Positions 14,109-28,699 of a stretch of DNA of 64,000 bases are shown piece after piece. How positions within the stretch are numbered: the first letter of the stretch is position 1; each line of letters starts with the position of its first letter. This DNA is from Strobilurus pachycystidiatus (taxonomy: Eukaryota > Basidiomycota > Agaricomycetes > Agaricales > Physalacriaceae), in contig JAHLMK010000009.1 in the NCBI GenBank assembly GCA_019915135.1, positions 1,488,001 through 1,552,000 of the forward strand. The letters are read 5' to 3'. The position numbers and the translations under genes were made by a program. Below the pieces are notes generated by a model, which had not been told where the DNA came from, searched no databases, and saw nothing but the letters and a program-made list of their open reading frames with translations.

Positions 14109-15333
14109 ATGTTACGACTGGCAGCTCTCTTCGCCATCGGCGTCCTGCAAGTGTCTGTGAATGCCCAGGATACATCGCACGCGACATGCTCAGATCCCGA
14201 ATATTCATGGGTGAGTGTTCACACCGAACCCTTTCAAAGGAACATCTCTCACGCTACACACATGAACAGTCCTTCAATTCGTTGCATCAGAGTCCTTGCG
14301 CAATCGGCGAAGCTCTTGGGAACGTCTGTACAAGTGATGGAAGTAAGTGCCTTGAGGCTGCCTCTGTCCATCCACCGCTAATTACTTCTCATCTCAGGCT
14401 TCAATATCCAGTACCTCCCAGCAGGATACTACTACTCTGGTATCAGCCCGACCTTTGCCACGAACTGTGTCTGCAACACTGTGTACTATTCTGTCCTGAA
14501 TGTCTGTGCCGCGTGTCAAGGCGGTTCAGTTGCTGCGTACGTACCGCCGGGATTTGCACGGACTCAATTCCTGATCTACGCTTTTAGATGGGACGATTGG
14601 AGCGTGAACTGCACCGTAGCATATTCGACCTTCCCGGACTCAATCCCAGATGCGACCGCCGTCCCGCACTACGCCTACCTCTCTCTCCTGTCGAACGGCA
14701 CGTTCAACTTCGCTGCAGCCGAAGCTGACACAGGCATGTCGATCACCATCATCTAGGCACGAACACAACTCTAAAGGCCTCTCTCTTCTAGGTCCGGAAG
14801 CGACTTTCACTGGCTCTGCCTCTGCCACATCGAAAACGGTTTCTACGACTGGTGTTAGCACGGCCAGCGGGTTCTCCTCAGCTTCACCCTCCGGTTCCGC
14901 AGCCGCCTCTAGCAGCAGTGGCCACAAGAAGTCACACACTGCTGCCATCGTCGGCGGAGTCATCGGTGGTATCATCTTCCTCCTCGCCGTTGGGCTTGGG
15001 ATCTTCTTCTGGCGACGGAGAGCACACCGCTCAGCGGCGGCGCAACCACAGACCCCTGGTCCTGAATCAGCCTTCTTGGCGCCCAACGGGACCGGTACGA
15101 CCTACACTCCCACAATGGGTGCTTTCAACCCGGAGAAGGTGTATGACCCCAACGACCCGTCGACCTTCCCGTCGAGTATGCCTGGTACACCCAGTGCCTA
15201 CCCTCAGCAGCCGTACACTCCGTATGGGAATCCACCATCCTCGCCAGATCCATTGGGGTATTCGTCGGTAACACCGCAGACCACGGGACAGCAGCAGCCT
15301 TCTGCAGGATATCGGGGCGTAGCGGAGATTTGA
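14109..15333 (+). CDS. Cysteine-rich type I membrane protein, paralog A
   Basis: Five exons: 14109-14210, 14270-14342, 14398-14536, 14588-14733 and 14792-15333. A signal peptide (MLRLAALFAIGVLQVSVNA) is followed by a compact ectodomain of about 130 residues with regularly spaced cysteines (HATC, SPCAIGEALGNVC, NCVCNTVYY, CAACQGG, VNCTV). A Ser/Thr/Ala stalk then leads to one membrane helix (IVGGVIGGIIFLLAVGLGIF) with a WRRRAHR stop-transfer sequence. The cytosolic tail of about 100 residues is rich in Pro, Tyr and Ser. Three introns are GT-AG; the fourth (14734-14791) begins with GC. The same layout occurs in B and C. It is a receptor- or sensor-like architecture; no ligand or pathway can be inferred. 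Confidence 0.85.
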
Positions 15334-15747
15334 TCTCATATTTGAACGATTCATGATATTTTACGCTTCGAGTTCCTGTATGTAAGTATCAAGCACAATG
15401 TGGGGTTTTTGAGAGAATAAAGCACGGTTTGAGTCGCCTGAGTGTATCTCGCAGGCCGCCAACACATCCGTTTCGACCCTCGACCGACACGCTGTCGGGA
15501 CGCTTAGAAACGCTACCAACGGAATATTAAAAAAGGACCTCCACCGTTATCGACGCGCACATGAGCGAAAGGTCACGTCGAACAGAACTTTGATATATGC
15601 ACCGACGAATTGAATTACTGTATGTTCTTGGTTGAGTACTGTATGTTCTTGCAGTGTCGAGTGCTCCAAAGTTCAGATGTTTTGTCCACGACTTTCCTGA
15701 TGCTCATCCTCCGTTATGCACCTTGAATCGCAATCAGAATAACCAGC

Positions 15748-15754
15748 TGTAAAC
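15748..15754 (+). repeat. Left target-site duplication TGTAAAC
   Basis: Seven bases directly before the left inverted repeat, matching exactly the seven bases directly after the right inverted repeat (23463-23469). Confidence 0.85.
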
Positions 15755-15790
15755 TGCGGTAGGCGGGAACATCGCACTTCAATTTCGGCT
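15755..15790 (+). repeat. Left terminal inverted repeat
   Basis: It begins TGCGGTAGGCGGGAACATCG. Its reverse complement is found at 23427-23462 with two mismatches (positions 4 and 15 of the repeat). Weaker similarity continues inward for about another 30 bp. Confidence 0.9.
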
Positions 15791-15970
15791 GAGACTTGGC
15801 CCGCTGTTCCGATCACGCCGTACCGCCTCACCTCCTGATCTGATTCGTTGCCGGAGACATTGTTCTGGTGAGCTGAGGTGTGTGTGGCGCATGGCCCATG
15901 TTCTCTGTGCATGTTGAGGGTGGCCGGAACAACATGGCGACAAGTTTTTGGATCGTATATCTGATACTAT

Positions 15971-17577
15971 CTACATGCTATCAATGTATCTACTCATTGT
16001 TACGAACACATTCCAGGCGTTGTGAACAGTAATCTGTGGCCTACCAAGCTCCGTGTATACCGACTCTGCTAGGTCTGCAAAGGCCTGTGAGTACCATTCA
16101 AAGTGTTGGGCCCGAGGCCCTTCGGCTTCCTCCAGTTGGGTGCGCAATACATCGAGACACTGCTGCGAGACTTTGACACGGCAGTCAATGCCGCCAAAGA
16201 GGTGCGGGCTTCGCATAGCAAAGGCTGGGACATGGCCCGATGGCATCAACTTCTCAGCTTGAGACCGGACACGGTGGTGGTTCCACCAGTCGCAGAAATC
16301 GTCAAGTTCAGATTGGATGAGCGGTACAAAAATCCAATAGAACAGTGAGCTACACAGAGACGTGAATCATTAGACAGCGTCAAGCAGTGATATCGGGCAA
16401 CATACGGGTGATATGGGTGATTGGGATCGAAGATGTGCTCCTCTTTGCCTCGAAGGATGAAGTCCTTGAGGTTGAAGCCAAGCTTCTCCAGAAAGCGCCG
16501 CCAGAACCCTTCAATAACTGTGTTCTGCGTACTCTTGATGATTACATGCGCCGGAAAAGCAGCGGAATCGATTTCGGGTGAGAAGAACTCGCTGCATACC
16601 CGTGTTAGAAGGACATTCACAGTGTATGAAAGTCAGTATATACCGAAGTGTTGTCATAAAGGCATGCTGCCAGCCAATCTCAGACCCTGCATCCGTTGTC
16701 AGTTGAATAGGGATGCCTGAAGGATATGTTGAGCTAGAGACCCGATGTCATGAGGAGAAAGAGACTTACAACCGTGTTTCTCGACAAAATCAAGGAGCAG
16801 GTGTCCTCCAGCGGCAGCGGTCCGACTGTTGGGAACTAGGACGAGTGAAAGAATCTCATCAGTCCATTTATCCTTATAACCATAGATTGGGAGGCCGATC
16901 TCTCCCATTCGAAGCGCTGCTTGACCAAGTTTCTCGTGACCGTCTGCCGAAACTTCGTGCCACGGTCCAAGGGCTGTCAATGCCACGCGAAGTCGTCGAG
17001 CTTGAGTCTTTTTTCCTGGGAAGCGCTTGAGAAAGCCGTCAGGATAGAGCTCATGCATGATAGCTGTTACAAGATCGCTGGCAATGTTGGGTCAGAGGTC
17101 TGGTAGAAAAGACGATGACGACGGACGTACATCGGAACAAGCATTCCCTTCTTCGACAGTTGGTCCTTCACAAAGTCAGGCCCGTTTCCATCGGTGGCAT
17201 CCTTCTCGACAACGTCGACAATAGCTTGTCGGATTTCGGCATCAGTATGATGTTCTTTGTAGTTTCGAACGGATCTAGTTTTGAGGCGCTTCTTCAACTT
17301 GCGTAACGTTGTGAGTCTAGGTGAGTATGACTCGATATCAAGTCCCGTAACGCCACTGATAGTATCCAACTGACCTGATAGTATAACCGAAATCAGTTTG
17401 CAACGATTCGAGCATGTCATTCTCGGTCTGTTTCTCTCTACGGTATTTGTCGAAGGCAAGTGCTAGTTCGGCATCGTCAGGCTCTGAGTTTGATCGTGAG
17501 CCGATACAATCAAGTTAACCACTCATCGACCTACTAGTCTGCTGTTGTCGTCCGTTCTTTCCTGTTGGGTTAGGCAT
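15971..17577 (-). CDS. DDE integrase-type transposase (rve-like catalytic core)
   Basis: Spliced by eye this gives about 430 residues in seven or more exons, from ATG at 17577 to TAG at 15971. The N-terminal 115 residues are Lys/Arg-rich and helical (LRKLKKRLKTR) and probably bind DNA. The catalytic core shows D in VSADGHEKLG, D in QLTTDAGSEIGW and E in STQNTVIEGFWRRF. The spacing is about 65 and 42 residues, a complete DDE triad like the integrase core of retroviruses and related DNA transposons. The C-terminal third has WWNHHRVRSQ and a Gly/His-rich stretch. Such proteins cut and join DNA at terminal repeats. Its place 180 bp inside the left repeat makes it the likely mobiliser of the element. 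No frameshift is needed in my model, so it may be active. Confidence 0.82.
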
Positions 17578-17819
17578 TGATATCTGGGTAGTTCACCATA
17601 TAGTGCTTGCAAGTTTCAAGTTATATTATTTGCCTCGTACGATGGACATATCGTATGATTTTACCAGTGTCGTCTGATTCGCATATCGTACGACTTAGGC
17701 TGCCAAGCAGGCGGATACACAGTGCCAAGCGTCGGGCTGGCGCGCTTTAGTGCGGGTGTCGCGATGTTTCAGGTCAGCACTGCTCCCTTGACCTCTTCAC
17801 ATTGTCACATCTCTAAAGC

Positions 17820-17825
17820 TATAAA
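17820..17825 (+). promoter_or_regulatory. TATA box of the alpha-kinase gene
   Basis: TATAAA followed by GGAGC, 50 bp before the kinase ATG, in the 297 bp divergent region shared with the transposase gene. Confidence 0.5.
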
Positions 17826-17874
17826 GGAGCCTCGGGAATATCTCTCTAGTTGTCTGCGCACCTCCGATTAACCC

Positions 17875-20389
17875 ATGGCTGACTTGGCAGTTCCGATGCC
17901 AGAGCCAGAGTGTGATGGCTGTGGCAAATCCTTTCGACTCTGGCGTAGGCCTGGACTTTGTCCCAAGTGCGACAAGCTAAAGGACATTGCCTTGGGCTCA
18001 GCCGAATATAAGGAGATAAAGGTCCGATTCTTCAATTACAGTCTCTGCATATCTGCTCTATCTGATTGTTTTACACTTCAGAACTATCCGCAATGCGCTA
18101 TCTGTGGTGTTGTTCGACGCAATCTGGACTCTGCTGCACCGGGAGCTTTGCAGTTATGCGGCTCTTCCCAGTGTGCACGAACAGCTGCTGACGCTCAAGG
18201 CCTTGAGTATAGTAAGTACCAAGCATCTACTCAACGAACGCTTGCTGACTTACACCGCTTTTAAGCTGTTGGAAAGCCTCAGCCTGCGGCGCATATTGAA
18301 CTTGCATCAAAGACCTTGGATCGACTGAAGCGTAGCGGCATAACTCCTGCCCCTACAGGCCAGGATTCAGGCTCCTATGGTACTCAGCATACAACGGCTA
18401 GTCTCTTACAACACGAGTACGGTCATGGATCCCCGGGTGAAGAGCAATATGGCATTGGATGGACTGTAAGTCTGAGACGCTTGTGTTTACTTCTCTCTCT
18501 CACGTTGAACACCAGGTTCGAATGCGCGCTGCCAAAAGCACCAGTGAAGAGTATGGCAATGGCTATAAGCGTTGGGCTGGTAGTGTCTATATGTCGGGTT
18601 TGTAGTCTTTGCTCTTTCCCTCAGTTTCGGCTCCTGATTTCACGTATACTTGCAGAGATCAAGGCGAACCTTCTTCTTCAAGTCAATGGAGAGTTCACCC
18701 GAGGCAATGATAAGCGTAAGCTAACCTCGTACGTTGTTCTTTTCTTTGCAAGCTCATGTCCTAACAACTCTAAGAGCTGAGGTATCGTTCCGGTGGCACA
18801 ACAACCGGCTTCCTGAGCCCAATACAGCATCGCTAACGGTTGCCGACTTCTACAAGGCTCACTCCAGTAACGGTAGTATGATGTTGACATACATCACAGG
18901 TAATGTCAGTCCGAAATTCAAGGCCAACGCTCCGAAAAATGCGAAGGGCATTCCGCTCATGTGCCTTGAGCTTTACATTGATACTCTGGCGGTACGTTGG
19001 TTTCATTATGTGAAGTACTCCCACTGACCGTACACTGTCATATTCCAGCATAAGAATCGAATGCTCAACGAAGACGCTGCAATGGGCGTACAGAACAGCG
19101 ATCTTGATGAAGATGATGGCGATCACTCTGATAGTGGTACCCGGAAGCGAGCACTTTCTCAGAGCGCTGGCCCTGTTTCCTCGGAACTGAAGCGTCCTAG
19201 AAGTGAGTGAAGTATTGGCAATGCTATCACTGTCATACTGAATGTGAACGCTCTGTAGATGGCTTTGCAGGCATGGAAAGTCGAAGGTCACACTCAGGAA
19301 GATGATTTGCACACTTGACGACGAGTTCAATCCCGAATACGATCAGACTCAAGAACATCTCCAAGGTTATATCCGTGATCGCCACTTTGCTGCAGGTGCA
19401 ATGAAGTATGCTTTTGATGTATGTCTTGTTTACCTGTCGCTCCGCTATGCACTCAATCATAAGCACAATAGATGTCTATAGGAACATCTTCCAGCAAGAG
19501 ACTGGTAGCCAAGCGATACTTTCGCTTCGATGAACCATCTGCAAACGCCCAGGATTCTGATGACGAACACCCACATGCTCCAGCGCTGGTCGACATTCGA
19601 AGCAACCGGGAATTTCTTCAATGGGACCTGGCTCGCCTGAAGCAGTGTCAGAAGTTTTTAAAGGCCTTCTACGTTCTGGCGCGCACCGCTGGTATTCAAG
19701 TGGACGAGAGTACGCACTTCAGTAATGTGTGAGCGTATTTCTCACTGACTCAATGAATAGACATACAGGTTGCCGATGCCTATCTCGCACAAGAGTTTGA
19801 GGTACTCAACAACAATGGCCCTGCCTTGAGCGCCCCCAGTATTGCCTCCGGTATACAGACTTTCGACGCCATTCACGGAGGCTTGACTTGGCTAGTTGAA
19901 GAGCGGCGTTCATCAGTAGTTGAACACTTCACCTCTACTCTCAATCAGAAGCGTAGTCGCCAGGACCTGACAGCCTTGACTATTGATGCCTTCCAGCACT
20001 TTGTGTTCAGATACACGAACAGAAGTATGGTGCTTGCCGATATTCAAGGTACAACTCATAGACAATCCTGAAGAACTACATTGACTTGACTTTCTCAGGT
20101 AGCCCTTCAACAGTTCACGGACAAGACGGACTGACCTTATTTGATCCGATGACCCACACACTCAATGGGTAAGTACAGTTGCAATTCGGTCCCTCTCTTG
20201 ATGCTCAACACATTGATATTTAGATCCTCCGGTGTTGGGGACTTTGGACGCTCTGGAATGTCTACTTTGATCAATGATCACAAGTGTGGCAGCATTTGTA
20301 GGCGCTTACACCTTCACACTGAAGCACTTACTCTACCACCTGAGGAGAATGATGATCAGGAGACTCAGAGTCAAGTTGAGAATGATTGA
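17875..20389 (+). CDS. Alpha-type (MHCK/eEF2K-like) protein kinase carried by the transposon
   Basis: About 560 residues in ten or so exons. The N-terminus has two possible zinc clusters (CDGCGKSF..CPKC and CAICG..CGSSQC). A middle region leads to a Ser/Asp-rich linker ending SELKRPR. The C-terminal half is an alpha-kinase domain: KVTLRKMIC, KRLVAKRYF (ATP-binding Lys), AFQHFVFRYTNRSMVLADIQG (catalytic strand), then LTLFDPMTH and GVGDFGRSGM. A zinc module DHKCGSICRRL follows. Alpha-kinases are not related in sequence to ordinary Ser/Thr kinases and are expanded in some basidiomycetes. One problem: at 19200-19265 the good donor and either nearby acceptor lead into a frame that stops near 19312, whereas the conserved kinase frame is shifted by one base. 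This is either an unusual splice or a frameshift. Confidence 0.8.
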
Positions 20390-20430
20390 TAGAGCTATCT
20401 TAGTATCTACCTCCAATATTACACTATGCC

Positions 20431-21119
20431 TACTACTTGAGTGTGAATACACATGTGTGATATTTGTAACTCAATTCACTGTAGATGTGAAATTTTTCAG
20501 GACATGAAACCACTTTCAGACATCTTGTATGACCTCTATGCACCATATTTGAGCACCAGAACAGGTCTCCTGGAAGGCCCTCCAGTTACCGTACTTGAGC
20601 TCATATATGTACATGCGAGATTCTCGTAACTCAACTCACGGTAGACCTAGAATTTCTCTGCACATGAAACCACTTTCAGACATCTTGTATGACCTCTATG
20701 CATCATATTTGAGCATCAGAACAGGTCTCCTGGAAGGCCCTCCAGTTACCGTACTTGAGCTCATATACGTACATGCGAGATTCTCGTAACTCAACTCACG
20801 GTAGACCCAGAATTTCTCTGCACATGAAACCACTTTCAGACATCTTGTATGACCTCTATGCATCATATTTGAGCATCAGAACAGGTCTCCTGGAAGGCCC
20901 TCCAGTTACCGTACTTGAGCTCATATACGTACATGCGAGATTCTCGTAACTCAACTCACGGTAGACCTGGGATTTTTCTGCACATGAAATCACTTTCAGA
21001 CATCTTGAATGACCTCTATGCATCATCTTTGAGCACCAGAACAGGTCTCCTGGAATGCCTTCTGTTTGCCGTTCTTGAGCTCAAACTTGCATGCCACATG
21101 CGGAATCTTGTGACTTGGT
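20431..21119. repeat. Tandem array of 160 bp repeats inside the transposon
   Basis: Three near-identical 160 bp units start at 20502, 20662 and 20822 (each with cATGAAACCACTTTCAG). A diverged, partial unit starts at 20982, and a decayed partial copy precedes the first. Each unit contains an open frame of about 64 codons, but 160 is not a multiple of three, so the array cannot encode one continuous repeat protein. The array begins about 40 bp after the kinase stop codon, so at least part could be transcribed as its 3' end. Confidence 0.92.
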
Positions 21120-21213
21120 TACTAGCAAAGCAGTCAAAGTTCTAGTCACTGTCAACTGACTTGAAATGATTATGTTTACAAAATAAATACATGATAATTT
21201 ACTTCATAATCAA

Positions 21214-23331
21214 CTATACCCGGCGAAGTCGCTTTGACTGTCGTATCGTGAGTATACTAGTCTCATTCTCCTTATCATTCTCATTCTCCATTCCATCTTC
21301 TAGCCCTATTCTTGCGCGCTTGGAAGGAGTGGGGGAAGAAGGGCAGGTTGGGGAACTAGAACAATCTACTCCGCCTCTCACTTCCGCGCCTGCACCAATT
21401 GTGTCCACATCCTCGTTATCCTCGCTCCAGATAGGAAAAAGTCGCGAAAAGCGCTGTATACACTTCTCTGCGTGCTTTCGAATATTCTCCTTCTCCTTTC
21501 GTAATACCTCGAGACGTGCCGCAGTGAGGGCCTTTGGTGCAGCGCCTGGTGATATTGATTTCTGGCGCTATGTGGTTTCAGTTTAGAACTACTGCCAAAG
21601 GAATGAGCACGTACTGGTGGCCTACCAGCTTTACGGGGCGGTGGCTGCTGAACATCTATCATGTTCAACTTCAATTCTCTGAAATTCACAGGCCCAACTG
21701 TCGTCTTGTAGCCCTCAAGACGGTGATCGGTGGCCGGTTTCTACAAGGATATGAGAGACCAAGAACACGTATAGAGTAAAAGACACATACCTCGGTTCCG
21801 TCAAGCCAGCCGTCTGGGGCCTGTGCCCGAATAACTGTAAAGGCTTTCAAACTGCCTTCTCGAAAGTACACAGGTACATGTATACTGCGAGTGCTGCGAT
21901 CAAGCGGACTAAGTGCAGCTTCAGTAGGTACATATGGAGCACCTAATAAGCGCGCTTCATCGTTGAGCTTAAACGATAGAACAGAACAATGCTCACCGAT
22001 AGTATGAGATGGGTCAAGTAGCCCGCGTCGGACAAGCAACTCGTACAGCTGTGTAGAGACAGAGACAGTCGCCTTTCGGAATACTTTCATCGCTGACGTC
22101 GTATACTTGCTGTCCGCCTTGGACTGAAACGCAAACGGATTCGAACTGGTATTGGAGGTGGCGCATTCAGATAAGAAAGCAGGAGTGCTAAACCATGCCA
22201 TGTATGCAAACATGCGGTCCACAAAGTTGTCAAAGAGGACATCGTCAGCGCAGATTAGACCGCCAGGCGTTCCAGGAAAGAGACCAAGTTCATGAAGAGC
22301 ATCGTTGGCGAGGTGGCGACCGAAGGGACTGAAGTAGGACTCCGATTGCTCCTTTCCCGTGATCAAATGGAGGATGGATGTTCGCCTTAGAACAGGGCTA
22401 TCCAAAACAAGCTGTCGCCATGAAGTCCGAAGTTCCCGATCGGCCAAATCCTTCTCAATGTCCCAATCGTGTCCTCCTTTGAACACAGTCCAAATACTAT
22501 TCCATGACTTGTCCAGTACATCAGTATTTATAGACAATGCATCACGAAAGACTAACCTTAGAGCCAGGCTTGAGATCGTCCTCAGTCCAGATAGTGTTGC
22601 GACTGATGACATGAAGGCGGACTAGACGCGAGAAATCGGCTACAACCCAAGCTTTGGACTTTGTAACAACGGCCGCCTGGATTCGAATGAACCGATCCTT
22701 TTCCTCGTCCTTGCTCCCCGGTTCAATGAAGCGTGCAGGGATGAGATATTGGCGGAGTGTGTCGGCCTTTCCCTTGTTGAAGTTCGGGCCCGGCACGCTC
22801 TTAGCGACGATCTCGTGGTAGACGTCGGTGTCGAGCTCGATTAGGTGTCCTTCGAGGCCCCAATGAACGACGAGTAGATGCTACAACATAGTGAGTGCTT
22901 GAGATTGGCAGAATGGTAGTGTTGCTGCTTACATATCCTACAGTAATGGCCAAGAGCTTGCCCCGAACCTCTATTGAGACCGGCCCCTCGCTCAGTCGGT
23001 TGAGCAGATACTGGCATGATCTATACTTCGAGGATTGAAGCTTCTTCCGGTCAAATGGGTCGACAGAAGCCAGAAAGGAAGGAACAGCGGGCTCCAGAGA
23101 CGGATTGTAGGCGGATCGGTCTACTGTTAGCGTAGTGTAGTCCTTCTCTTTTGTCCCCACAGCCCAAGTGCTCGGATGGATCATAAGTCGGCCTGCAAAC
23201 TCAGTTAGTGCCAAGGAACCAGAACATGACAGCCACGTGCCATTGACATGATTCCCATTAGTATCCTTGAGGTATTCCAGCGTCTTTTGAACGCGCCTTT
23301 TGACGGCCTTGGCTTCGCTGCCCTCCGGCAT
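21214..23331 (-). CDS. Unknown protein of the transposon with AT-hook-like basic C-terminus
   Basis: Spliced by eye this gives about 600 residues in six exons, from ATG at 23331 (131 bp inside the right end) to TAG at 21214. The N-terminus is Lys/Arg-rich (EAKAVKRRVQKTLEYL). The middle is a mixed, globular-looking region with many Trp and aromatic residues (LLVVHWGLEGHLIELD, WTVFKGGHDWDIEKDL, FAYMAWFSTPAFL). Near the C-terminus comes PPPRKAGRPPRQKS, close to an AT hook, followed by a Lys/Glu helix and a basic end (PSKRARIG, RQSKRLRRV) that could be a nuclear signal. No enzyme motif is recognised. Being inside the inverted repeats and intact, it may be an accessory transposition or DNA-binding factor; this is inference from position and composition. 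Confidence 0.7.
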
Positions 23332-23426
23332 GATGGTGGTCGATGATCAACGAACGAAGGTCGCGTCTGATCACACGTGGCGACAGACATGTGACAATCG
23401 GAGTGGCCGCCGGCCAAGAAGTCCGA

Positions 23427-23462
23427 AGCCGAAATTGAAGTGCGATGCTCCCGCCTACGGCA
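23427..23462 (-). repeat. Right terminal inverted repeat
   Basis: Reverse complement of the left repeat with 34 of 36 matches; the element ends in CCGCCTACGGCA on the plus strand. Confidence 0.9.
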
Positions 23463-23469
23463 TGTAAAC
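23463..23469 (+). repeat. Right target-site duplication TGTAAAC
   Basis: Exact copy of 15748-15754, immediately outside the right inverted repeat. Confidence 0.85.
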
Positions 23470-25403
23470 GGTTTCAGCTACCAAGTTAGTCTCGAAACCA
23501 GCCTCTACGAGTGTGAAGATAGTCGTTCACCCATCTAGACTACCAAGTCTGCATAAACGTAAATAATCAAAAATGGAGGCCAAAATCTCACGTGGCTCAT
23601 CATCCTCTCACCCCCCATGGATCGACCCCCGGCCGCCATATATTGACCCGCCATGGACGTAGCCAAATGTACCTACCCACAACCTCTTCTTCGTGCGCGC
23701 CATGACCTCGCCAGCCTCACACACAGCCTAGGCATCCATCGCGGCGACGATGATCACGTCCCACCCATGGCCACCCACCTCCTTTTGGCTCCTTCCACTC
23801 CTTGCAGCGAACCCTGGCGCCAGACTTCGAAACGATGCTGAATACAACCAGCGGCGAAAAAAAAGACGTGTCGCAGACAAGCCGTCACAACTGTCCTATG
23901 TCGCCTCTCTGCCAGTGACGCGCTTATAGCACATTGGCGATGCCATCTTTAACCCCAAAGTCCTATAGACGATCAAGGAGGACGTCGCCGAAGCGTAGCC
24001 TGTAGAGCTTGAATCCACAAAGGCGGACAGCACTTTGCAGTTTCGAAAGCGCATCGCGGCCTTACAACATCCGATGCTCATCATTCCTGGTGCGTCCTCC
24101 CGGTCATGTTTCATAGCGTATATATTCACTGCCAAAACCAGGGGTCACCTCCAAGCCTTGTTCCAGCGGAGATGAACGCATCTGCGCGTCTATCCTCTTC
24201 GGCTTCCTGCGCATCATACATGTCCTCATCGTCAAGTATTGTCGGGATCCAGAAACTGTTCGGCGGTGTGGCCTCCAACGTCCCACAGGACTGGACTATT
24301 ACTCAACACTTAATTCCACGGTACTCGATGGTGCGTTTCTAGACTACCCTTGAACACACGCTCATTCTGCTCTAGACGTCCGGATGTACGGTCCTCGCCG
24401 TCACGTTGAACAGCGTATAACTATGAAAAACCAGAGCTCCTCGTGATGCTAGAGTATTTCTATGCGTCCAGCACGCCACACGGCTCCCTTACAACTACCT
24501 CACACGAGAGGCCGTCGTCATTTGGATTCGTCTCTGATCGGCTCACTGGCAGAAAGTGCGAATATGCAAGTCTCGGATACTCTATCGCGCTCTCTCACTC
24601 ATACCCCATGCAGTTTCGAGCTGGAACATCTGCGTATTTTCGCATCTCTCGGGGTGTGTGGAACGTCGATCCAACATGGACTACTTCAAGAACAAGATTG
24701 GGCACGACGGTGTTCTCTCCCAGCGGTCCAGGTCAGATCATATCTCTTTGCTGTCAAGGCTTTTGCTACGGAAATACGAGGTGAGGATTTTTTCTGTGTT
24801 TTTTCCATCCCTTTCTCAACATCTCTAGACTGTTGACGAACTCTTTGACGATGAGTCTGGATTGATCCGGAGCGTTTTCACGAACCCTGGAACCACTCGC
24901 TCCTGCCAGTGCTGCTTTTATTGTTGCGCTTACCCGTCGGATACCTTCCGGTGACTGGTCAGTCTACCTGGGGGTAGAACCCTGCTCGCATAGTAGGTCA
25001 AGTTCTCGGCGACATCGACGCTAAAAGACGTTCTCGTTGAAACAGTCCCAGGATCGTACGAGAAAGCCTATCACGGGTGTTTTTGGAATGGACTAGCCTT
25101 CCGCCATAGCTTTCCTTCCTGATGCTTGGACTGTGCGAGATACTACTTACTGCCATAACTACAAGCGATCGCCCTCCTTTCTCACTTCTCACTTCCACCC
25201 CGGTCAATATGCACCTCGCCAAGACCCTGATAGACCACAAGGGTCGCCCCTGAAGTTCTCAGCGCCCACAAATTGACAACAATTAGCTACCTAGCTACCA
25301 CAATCGCGCCGTAGGGTTTCACGGCCCAAAAGAAGTGCATAAAGGCAGAAATAGGCTTGTTCACCTAGCAATCCTTTCCTCCTCCCACTCTAGCGGCGTC
25401 GAA
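23470..25403. other. No intact gene; possible decayed coding remnants before paralog B
   Basis: Short stretches have coding-like character. One is at about 24170-24420, where QKLFGGVASNVPQDWTI runs to a good donor (ATG|GTGCGT) and acceptor (TGCTCTAG). Another is at about 24680-24900, where RKYE splices over GTGAGG..CTCTAG into TVDELFDDESGLIRS. I could not join them into one open protein and do not recognise the family. The last 250 bp resemble the upstream region of paralogs A and C and are the promoter of paralog B. I read the stretch as a degenerate gene or two. Confidence 0.3.
25337..25342 (+). promoter_or_regulatory. Degenerate TATA box (CATAAA) of paralog B
   Basis: CATAAAGGCAG lies at the position of TATAAAGGCAG in the two sister genes, 62 bp before the ATG. 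Confidence 0.4.
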
Positions 25404-26604
25404 ATGTTACGACTGGCAGCGCTCTTTGCCATCGGCGTCCTGGACCTGCAAGTGTCTGTGAATGCACAGGGTATAACGCACGCGACTTGCGCAGATCCTG
25501 AATATCAATGGGTGAGTGCTCACACCAATCAAACCAGACCTCTCACACCAAACACATGAATAGTCCTTCAATTCGTTGAATCAGAGTCCTTGCGCAATCG
25601 GAGAAGCCCTTGGGAACGTCTGTACGGGTGACGGAAGTAAGTGCCTTGAGGCTGCCTCTAGTATCCGTCCCAATGATGATCACTTCTCATCTCAGGCTTT
25701 TTTATCCAGTATCTCCAAGCCGGATACATGTACTCTGGTATCAACGTGCCCTGGAACACGAAATGTGCCTGCAACACCGTGTACTACTCTGTCTTGAATG
25801 TTTGTGCCGCGTGTCAAGGCGGCTCAGTCGATACGTACGCACAGCCAGGATCTGCGCGGACTCAAACCCTGATCAGCGTTTTTAGATGGGACAATTGGAG
25901 CGCCAACTGCACCGTACCATATCAAGCCTTTCCGAACTCGATCCCAGATACGACCGCCGTCCCGCACTACGCCTTCCACTCTCTCTTGGGGAACGGCACG
26001 TTCGACTTCGCCGCTGCCGAAGCTGACACAGGCATGTCGATCACCATTATCGCGGCACAAAAACCACTCTGAACACCTACCTTCTCTAGGTCCGGAAGCG
26101 ACTTTCACTGGCTCTGCCTCTGCTACATCGAAAACGGTCTCTGCGACTGGTAGCTCGACGAGCGAAGCTTCATCCTCTAGCTCCGCCCCCGCCCCTAGCA
26201 GCGGTGGTGGCAAGAAGCCAAACACTGGTCCCATCGTCGGGGGAGTCATCGGTGGTGTCGCCCTCCTCCTCGCTGTTGGGCTTGGAATCTTCTGCTGGCG
26301 GCGTCGAAAACACCGCTCAGCGGTCTTGCAACTGCAGAGTTTTGGCACAGAATCGACCTTTTTGGCGCCCAACCCTAACCCGAAGTTGTATGACCCCAAC
26401 GATCCGTCGACCTTCCCGTCGAATATGCCTGGTACACTCAGTGCCCACCCTCGGCAGCCATATAGTCTGTATGGGCATCCACCACCCTCACCAGATCCAT
26501 CGGCGTATCCTTCGGTACCACCGCCGTATTCGTCGCCGGTACCACCACAAACCACGGGACTGCAGCAGGCTTCTGCAGGATATCGGGGCGTAGCGGAGAT
26601 TTGA
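25404..26604 (+). CDS. Cysteine-rich type I membrane protein, paralog B
   Basis: Same five-exon structure as paralog A. The signal peptide carries a three-residue insertion (GVLDLQVSV). The ectodomain cysteines are kept (HATC, CAIGEALGNVC, KCACNTVYY, CAACQGG, ANCTV), but many surface residues differ (NVPWNTK for SPTFATN). The stalk is shorter, the helix is GGVIGGVALLLAVGLGIFCW, and the stop-transfer sequence is RRRKH. The cytosolic tail lacks the GTGTTYTPTMG segment but has the extended PPPYSSPVPP repeat shared with C. The fourth intron (26032-26089) begins with GC. It is the most diverged of the three in its outer domain, which suggests different ligands. Confidence 0.83.
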
Positions 26605-26815
26605 TCTCATTTTGGTTTTCCTCTACAGTATACTTATGAACGGCTCATGCTAATTTATGCCCCTTGTATGTATCAAGCACAGTGCGGCTTTTTGAAAGAA
26701 TAAGCACGAGTCTAAGTCGTCCACCATCCTGCATTGGCTTGATTCTTGAAGCTCGTAAGTGACAGGTTTTGCTACAGCAAAGTGCAATGTTACTGTAGAT
26801 GTTATGTTACTTTCC

Positions 26816-27027: not shown

Positions 27028-28286
27028 ATGTTACGACTGGCAGCGCTCTTCGCCATCGGCGTCCTGCAAGTGTCTCAGCCTGTGAATGCCCAGGATACAT
27101 CTCACGCGACATGCTCAGATCCCAAATTTTCATGGGTGAGTGTTCACACCGAATCCTGATTCCTGAACATCTCTCACGCCACGCGAATGAACAGTCCTTC
27201 AATTCGTTGAATCAGAGTCCTTGCGCATTCGGGGAAGCCCTTGGGAGCGTATGTACGAGTGACGGAAGTAAGTACATCGAGGCTGCCTCTATCCATCCCA
27301 AAGCTGATCACTTCTCATCTCAGGCTTCAACATCCAGTACCTCCCAGCAGGATACTTCTACTCTGGTATTAGCCCGACCTTTGCCACTAACTGTGTCTGC
27401 AACACCGTGTACTACTCTGTGTTGAATGTCTGTGCCGCGTGTCAAGGCGGTTCAGTTGCTGCGTACGTACCGCCGGGATTTGCACGGACTCAATTCCTGA
27501 TCTACGCTTTTAGATGGGACGACTGGAGTGTCAACTGCACCGTAGCATATTCGACCTTCCCGGACTCAATCCCAGATGCGACCGCCGTCCCGCACTACGC
27601 CTACCTCTCTCTCCTGCCGAACGGCACGTTCAACTTCGCTGCAGCCGAAGCTGACACAGGCATGTCGATCACCATCATCTAGGCACGAACACAACTCTAA
27701 ACGCCTCTACCTTCTAGGCCCGGAAGCGACTTTCACTGGCTCTGCATCTGCCACATCGAAAACGGTCTCTACGACTGGTGTTAGCACGACCAGCGGGTTC
27801 TCCTCAGCTTCACCCTCTGGTTCCGCAGCCGCCTCTAGCAGCAGTGGCCACAAGAAGTCACACACTGCTGCCATCGTCGGCGGAGTCATCGGCGGTATCA
27901 TCTTCCTCCTCGCCGTTGGGCTTGGGATCTTCTTCTGGCGGCGGCGAGCACACCGCTCAGCGGCGGCGCAACCACAGAATCCTGGTCCTGAATCAGCCTT
28001 CTTGGCGCCCAACGGGACCGGTACGACCTACACTCCCACAATGGGTACTTTCAACCCGGTGAAGGTGTATGACCCCAACGACCCGTCGACCTTCCCGTCG
28101 AGTATGCCTGGTACACCCAGTCCCTACCCTCAGCAGCCATACAGTCTGTATGGGCATCCACCACCCTCACCAGGTCCATCGGCGTATTCGTCGGTACCAC
28201 CGCCGTATTCGTCGCCGGCACCAACACTGCAGACCATGGGACTGCAGCAGGCTTCTGCAGGTTATCGGGGCGTAGCGGAAATTTGA
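27028..28286 (+). CDS. Cysteine-rich type I membrane protein, paralog C (A/B chimera)
   Basis: Same five exons as A and B. From the promoter to the middle of the cytosolic tail it is almost identical to A, with ectodomain WDDWSVNCTVAYSTFPD, the same stalk and the same helix. From about 28130 onward it switches to a B-like sequence: PYSLYGHPPPSP, the PPPYSSP repeat, QQASAGYRGVAEI, and then the B-like 3' untranslated region. The GC-AG intron is at 27660-27717. Signal peptide, cysteines and membrane helix are intact. The switch suggests unequal crossing-over or gene conversion between A- and B-type copies. Confidence 0.85.
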
Positions 28287-28699
28287 TCTCATTTTGGTCT
28301 TCCTGTACAGTATTCGTATGAACGGCTCATGCTAATTTATGCCTCTTGTATGTATGTATCAAGCACAGTGCGGGTTTCTGAAAGAATAAGCACGAGTCTG
28401 AGTCGTCCACCACCCCGCATTGGCTTGAAGCTCGTAAGTGACGGGCTTTGCTACCTCCTTGATCCCCGACCGGACTCACAAGACCCATCAAGTTACGTCC
28501 TCCGCCTGGCCATAGTGGTTACAAAAATTCTATGACGTATATTCATTCGCGCTATTGTTATCCTTTCAAGCCACCATCAGGGTAGCGCACGAAGGACAAT
28601 GGCAAGAATGATCGTCGGCCCATTGTCTCTTGTTCAAACAAGTGTTTGTGTGCTGCAAGCCAGCCGAGCTAACGCGAAACATCTTCTCTCCCATTAACC

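Follow-up and report, generated by a model that had tools for sequence, protein, structure and literature searches.

An apparently autonomous transposon of Strobilurus pachycystidiatus in which an alpha-kinase looks like a long-standing partner of an integrase-like transposase

Introduction

Transposons of the IS3EU group always have TA..TA termini and usually a 6-bp target site duplication, and GingerRoot, which falls in the same supported lineage, has mostly TA..TA and occasionally TG..CA ends together with 6-bp duplications (PMC10045372, available part). All fungal families of TET+ IS3EU were reported to contain a transposase gene and an alpha-kinase gene in opposite orientations (Kojima 2025, PMC12730594, section 4.1, the only section of the main text, as available, that mentions the kinase), and TET/JBP genes likely help transposons to evade methylation-based silencing (PMC12730594). 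In Styx, an IS3EU-like element, one gene has a GATA domain (PMC10853768, available part). Here we describe a transposon from the basidiomycete Strobilurus pachycystidiatus, located in a stretch of 64,000 nucleotides (assembly GCA_019915135.1, contig JAHLMK010000009.1, positions 1,488,001 to 1,552,000), hereafter called the window. The element occupies window positions 15755-23462 (7,708 bp) and encloses genes for an integrase-like DDE transposase, an alpha-kinase and a third protein for which no family was found.

A preliminary description, made from the sequence letters, had proposed that this is an intact mobile element, that the kinase might belong to its own equipment, and that an alpha-kinase had not been described in any eukaryotic transposon. 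The last point does not hold, because the TET+ IS3EU families have both genes (PMC12730594), and the idea that the arrangement as such is undescribed was rejected on account of the same transposase/alpha-kinase pair. The first two proposals fared better: we consider it likely that the element is a mobile DNA transposon with the kinase as a standing partner, a judgement that leaves aside the biochemical role of the kinase.

Results

Boundaries of the element

The transposon lies between two copies of TGTAAAC, at 15748..15754 and 23463..23469, which were read at the flanks and are identical over 7 bp. Its terminal inverted repeats, found by an inverted-repeat search, occupy 15755..15790 on the + strand, starting TGCGGTAGGCGGGAA, and 23427..23462 on the - strand, starting on that strand TGCCGTAGGCGGGAG; they are 36 nt long and complementary at 34/36 positions (94%). 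This pair was the best among 8 inverted pairs in 14500-24700 (the runner-up had 26 nt and 81%), and by chance only ~6e-11 pairs of this quality would be expected in 10.2 kb with equal and independent bases. A 20-base end pattern matched the window twice, both times at the element ends, with 0.01 matches expected. The three genes between the ends are each open once spliced, with 21 introns in total (47-64 nt, GT-AG); splicing is predicted in all three, at sites that we chose. The preliminary description, which had three genes enclosed by these repeats and a perfect 7-bp duplication, was thereby confirmed as to ends, duplication and three genes with predicted open frames.

The termini, TGCGG..CGGCA, are of the TG..CA type. 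At position 4 the left and right ends show a G/C mismatch that recurs in all four elements of this end type, and it is therefore a family trait and not decay. Recent movement had been deduced from the near identity of the ends, which is weak reasoning, since such transposon ends do not start identical; the perfect duplication and the open genes nevertheless argue against great age.

The transposase and the alpha-kinase

The transposase gene (15971..17577, - strand) has seven predicted exons and encodes 427 amino acids. Its product matches the Pfam family rva_4 (E=6.6e-9) and carries the residues D158, D224 and E267, aligned using 61 hand-picked near-full-length relatives, which bears out the earlier assignment to integrase-like DDE transposases. 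A regular-expression count of DDE motifs over 120 listed transposases gave 93, 62 and 61 matches, the patterns being narrow and some entries partial. The model of the relative P0004 suggests a helical N-terminal part and an integrase-like core (retroviral-integrase fold). For the proteins of the element, the nearest relatives, with identities up to 55%, come from Mycena and Favolaschia. One transposase relative, P0005 (Mycena chlorophos, 544 amino acids), bears the source name GATA-type domain protein and has a cysteine-rich C-terminal extension. Scans of viral contigs found no relative of the transposase, the alpha-kinase or the third gene.

The alpha-kinase gene (17875..20389, + strand) has 12 predicted exons and encodes 633 amino acids with the kinase domain at 372-604; 297 bp separate its start codon from that of the transposase. 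By its domain the predicted protein is a member of the alpha-kinase family, as proposed before: it matches Pfam Alpha_kinase (PF02816, E=7.4e-25) over profile positions 2-185 of 185, and among solved structures the best sequence match is to myosin heavy chain kinase A (1.3e-8, kinase residues 533-614 only). The conserved alpha-kinase motifs, whose residues we take to have catalytic and zinc-binding roles, are kept. Four relatives, one from Favolaschia claudopus and three from Mycena galericulata, were found among the 7993 candidates with most shared words, the only ones scored, with identities of 34-40% over 81-97%. The motif RKRALS is invariant in 5/5 aligned kinases, N-terminal cysteine pairs are also present in P0122, and the stretch 310-329 is presumably a bipartite motif resembling a nuclear localization signal.

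Genome-wide linkage and parallel divergence

In the host genome (51.8 Mb searched, all copy counts being lower bounds) seven loci have relatives of the transposase that score above 50 bits, namely the window, C25, C4:431k, two on C3, C14:1277k and C4:2111k, contigs being denoted by C. A further six loci match more weakly, among them C17 and C2 (31% over 61 residues in both). The 13 rows of Pfam alpha-kinase matches fall into ten loci; eight of the ten are less than 5 kb (2.1-4.3 kb) away from one of these 13 transposase loci, two of the transposase matches concerned being weak. Under random placement the binomial probability of at least eight such cases is ~1e-19, a figure not corrected for copies that belong to the same family; linkage is 6/8 once the two C3 copies and the C17/C2 pair are each counted once. 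Seen from the transposase, a kinase lies near six of the seven strong loci, and near all seven if the weak match at C25 is added, where the transposase adjoins a weak kinase exon (E=0.0015). The linkage extends across several element families.

The two genes also diverged in parallel. Transposase and kinase identities correlate with r=0.66 (rounded; 0.64 unrounded), a value that 6 of 720 label permutations reach, in a comparison that is itself a reason for caution, as it covers six families of elements in 15 pairs that are not independent, has kinase overlaps of 72-569 columns, leaves out C25 (overlap at most 45), C17 and C2, and was permuted on rounded identities. The closest transposase pairs, window-Favolaschia (52%) and C3-C14 (51%), are the closest kinase pairs too (43% and 44%), where the Favolaschia proteins P0004 and P0122 were treated as one family and taken as linked only from both contigs being 3412355 long, which likewise calls for caution. 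Since the kinase is linked to the transposase and their similarities rise together, it looks, to judge from these sequences, like a stable, long-standing partner of the transposase and not a passenger, and such co-inheritance speaks for some benefit of the kinase to the element. The suggestion that the kinase is part of the element's own equipment thus gains support.

The surroundings of the kinase loci C17:1140707 and C2:709988 are 99.6% identical over 3.3 kb; these loci are therefore probably copies of another mobile element. Around the C4, C14, C25 and C7 loci a search for inverted repeats gave only pairs of 9-13 bp, and no end-like motif turned up when 21 loci were scanned.

Relatives with similar ends

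An end-pattern search of the genome matched 15 places (3 for the reversed control), eight of them with at most one mismatch. These eight form four pairs, namely the window element and three elements of 821-831 bp on C8, C20 and C21 that are 98-99% alike and flanked by duplications matching at 6/6, 7/7 and 5/6 positions, respectively; a further search for copies of the short type in the genome found none more. The copies with the same ends that the preliminary description had led us to seek thus exist as three short ones with duplications of 6-7 bp, and only one full three-gene copy was found.

Two elements of about 9 kb, C3:1740426-1749404 and C3:1804974-1813958, also contain a transposase and an alpha-kinase. 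Over the compared 6.4 kb their identity is 99.9%, and both stop at the terminus TAGGGCTGGCGGGAA; their left termini, TACGGTTGGCGGGAA, were located by pattern and read with their flanks, and the duplications GTATAAA and CAGGCCA, read by eye, are each perfect over 7 bp. The C3 elements are like the window element in the divergent transposase and alpha-kinase, the 7-bp duplications and 13/15 of the first left-end bases; they differ in having TA..TA ends, a length of about 9 kb and another third gene, which sits on the transposase side. Searched separately, the third proteins of the window and of C3 did not retrieve each other, remote kinship being possible. The short elements with the same ends and these kinase-bearing relatives with similar ends and duplications bear out the view that the window element is mobile.

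A degenerate 15-base end pattern matched 19 places (4 in the reversed control), 11 of them being termini of elements covered here. At C1:5746394-5748651 two C3-type ends in inverted orientation (TACAGCTGGCGGGAAGTCCAAGG) are separated by 2.3 kb and perhaps mark a non-autonomous derivative. Relatives of the C3 third gene occur beside the C4:2111k transposase (39%) and on C1 (86%); the latter, at C1:2398001-2398662, is a copy 77-86% identical with internal stop codons, and no neighbouring transposase or kinase was among the genome matches.

The third gene and the surroundings of the element

The third gene (21214..23331, - strand) has five predicted exons and encodes 639 amino acids, with no match in Pfam or PDB sequences at E up to 1. 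It had been called AT-hook-like; one stretch, RKAGRPP at residue 516, agrees with this name, which depends on our recognition of that single motif as AT-hook-like. One relative, P0001, is a metagenome fragment of 188 amino acids that aligns at 37% with 57% of the query frame; the search was made with a 311-amino-acid exon frame and its length filter left out full-length relatives of the 639-amino-acid protein, so this single match says little on the rarity of the gene. Fold prediction of the exon frame with P0001 was poor (predicted local distance difference test, pLDDT, 33).

Relatives in the same genome lie at C7:337662-338231 (46%) and C7:394665-395326 (38%), with a weak match on C35. Some 3 kb away from the first lies a distantly related rva_4 transposase, so the third gene also has a second integrase-type transposase as a neighbour; the two loci examined there (L043 and L063) gave no match to a kinase. 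The two C7 relatives correspond to residues ~290-521 and 1-240 of the third protein and lie on the same strand 56 kb apart, as would be expected if one copy had been interrupted by a large insertion.

A tandem array with a period of 160 bp and 3.9 copies (20466..21083) lies between the 3' ends of the kinase and the third gene, occupying much of the gap between these converging genes. The element itself is surrounded by a tandem array of related genes (window 14255-15436, 25552-26613 and 27187-28405), copies of which are 79-89% identical to the stretch left of it. A paralogous empty site was sought in this gene array and not found; the paralogue alignments end 318 bp before the insertion point.

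Discussion

Several observations weigh against a mobile element with a standing kinase partner. The transposase matches at C17 and C2 are weak, and the kinase loci C7:725469 and C51:38231 have no transposase relative nearby; these two may be host kinases or remnants. Gene arrangement is not fixed, being divergent at six of nine loci (the window, both on C3, C4:2107k, C17 and C2), convergent at two (C4:426k and C25) and tandem at one (C14). Eighteen rva_4 loci lie at least 213 kb from any kinase or on other contigs, which limits the link to close relatives of the window transposase; they were clustered from 34 rows, four overlap weak transposase matches, and the exon-wise search missed the window's own transposase. 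Three other kinase relatives have no same-sized contig with a listed transposase. The DNA search found a single full-length copy of the window element in the host genome, and no empty site was seen, so that movement of this copy would have to be deduced; the short elements share only 31-37 bp of its ends, and a sister family may therefore have moved them.

If the kinase were passive cargo, a captured host alpha-kinase merely carried along, the two kinase loci without a transposase neighbour would be readily understood: transposons generally capture host genes, and the failure of the window and C3 third proteins to retrieve each other suggests that such elements take up different genes. A fresh capture, however, would not explain a kinase near six of seven strong transposase loci (all seven with C25), the concordant divergence, the retained kinase motifs, or the alpha-kinase of the TET+ IS3EU families (PMC12730594), and we regard passive cargo as improbable. 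That the element is an old, dead insertion whose genes only seem intact and whose ends survive by chance would fit the single full copy and the 2/36 mismatches between the ends. One of these two mismatches, however, is common to all four elements of the end type, all three genes are open once spliced, the 7-bp duplication is perfect and the short copies are 98-99% alike, which together make a dead insertion very hard to credit. The kinase might instead act on the host, for example by modifying silencing so that sister elements profit, and not on the element's own proteins. The TET/JBP genes of related elements, likely anti-silencing genes (PMC12730594), speak for this and imply that genes for silencing evasion may occur in this group; even so, we hold this explanation to be unlikely.

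A mobile transposon with the kinase as partner could work as follows. The element is apparently autonomous and, by its sequence, of an integrase-like lineage related to IS3EU and GingerRoot. The helical N-terminal part of the transposase would bind the 36-bp ends, and its integrase-type DDE core would cut them and join them to staggered target cuts, leaving a duplication of 6-7 bp, here of 7 bp; the transposase or a close relative would also move the short non-autonomous copies that share these ends. Retention of the alpha-kinase alongside the transposase would predate the divergence of the families in this genome, and, as a guess, the kinase might act in the nucleus and promote transposition by phosphorylation. 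Its substrates could tentatively be sought among the element's own proteins and, with the same reserve, among host silencing, chromatin or repair proteins. The third protein could be an accessory DNA-binding factor, a suggestion we make with slightly less hesitation. We think it somewhat unlikely that the alpha-kinase is obligate for transposition in a eukaryotic lineage and that in a mushroom genome of this kind the alpha-kinases belong mostly to transposons and not to host signalling.

Alpha-kinase genes of mushrooms are easily mistaken for host signalling genes. With eight of the ten loci detected in this genome no more than 5 kb away from a relative of the transposase, counts of the kinome would have to be corrected. 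Should movement require the kinase, the element would be one that uses phosphorylation to control its transposition or the silencing by its host.

Compared with the available parts of the published descriptions, the window element is like TET+ IS3EU in having the transposase on the - and the kinase on the + strand, that is, in opposite orientations, in terminal inverted repeats of more than 30 bp and in short duplications (PMC12730594). It differs from the rust families, which have TAYGG..CCRTA termini and 6-bp duplications, in its TGCGG..CGGCA termini and 7-bp duplication; and whereas TET+ IS3EU has a TET/JBP gene between transposase and kinase, here only the 297 bp between the start codons intervene, and the extra gene is a different one, placed beyond the kinase (PMC12730594). 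Pfam scans of the three window proteins gave no TET match. The TA..TA termini of IS3EU are found in the C3 relatives and not in the window element, and duplications are 7 bp in the window, C20 and both C3 elements, 6 bp in C8 and 5/6 in C21. With GingerRoot the TG..CA ends agree as its occasional type, whereas the duplication is 7 bp (6 in one short copy), and the available part of that description does not mention a kinase (PMC10045372). Styx of Zymoseptoria shares an IS3EU-like transposase, a length of 7.9 kb and several genes, including putative DNA-binding motifs, and is unlike the window element in its 6-bp duplications and its other genes (GATA, CCHC, DUF3577), an alpha-kinase not being named in the available part (PMC10853768). 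Because of the TG..CA ends, the 7-bp duplication and the other third gene, strict membership of IS3EU is not established; compared by description, the element resembles IS3EU and GingerRoot. As far as found in the literature searched, which did not include most subscription journals, two features are apparently new: a transposase/alpha-kinase pair that lacks a TET gene and comes with TG..CA ends, a duplication of 7 bp and a third gene for which no family was found, and the association, across the genome, of alpha-kinases with this group of transposases.
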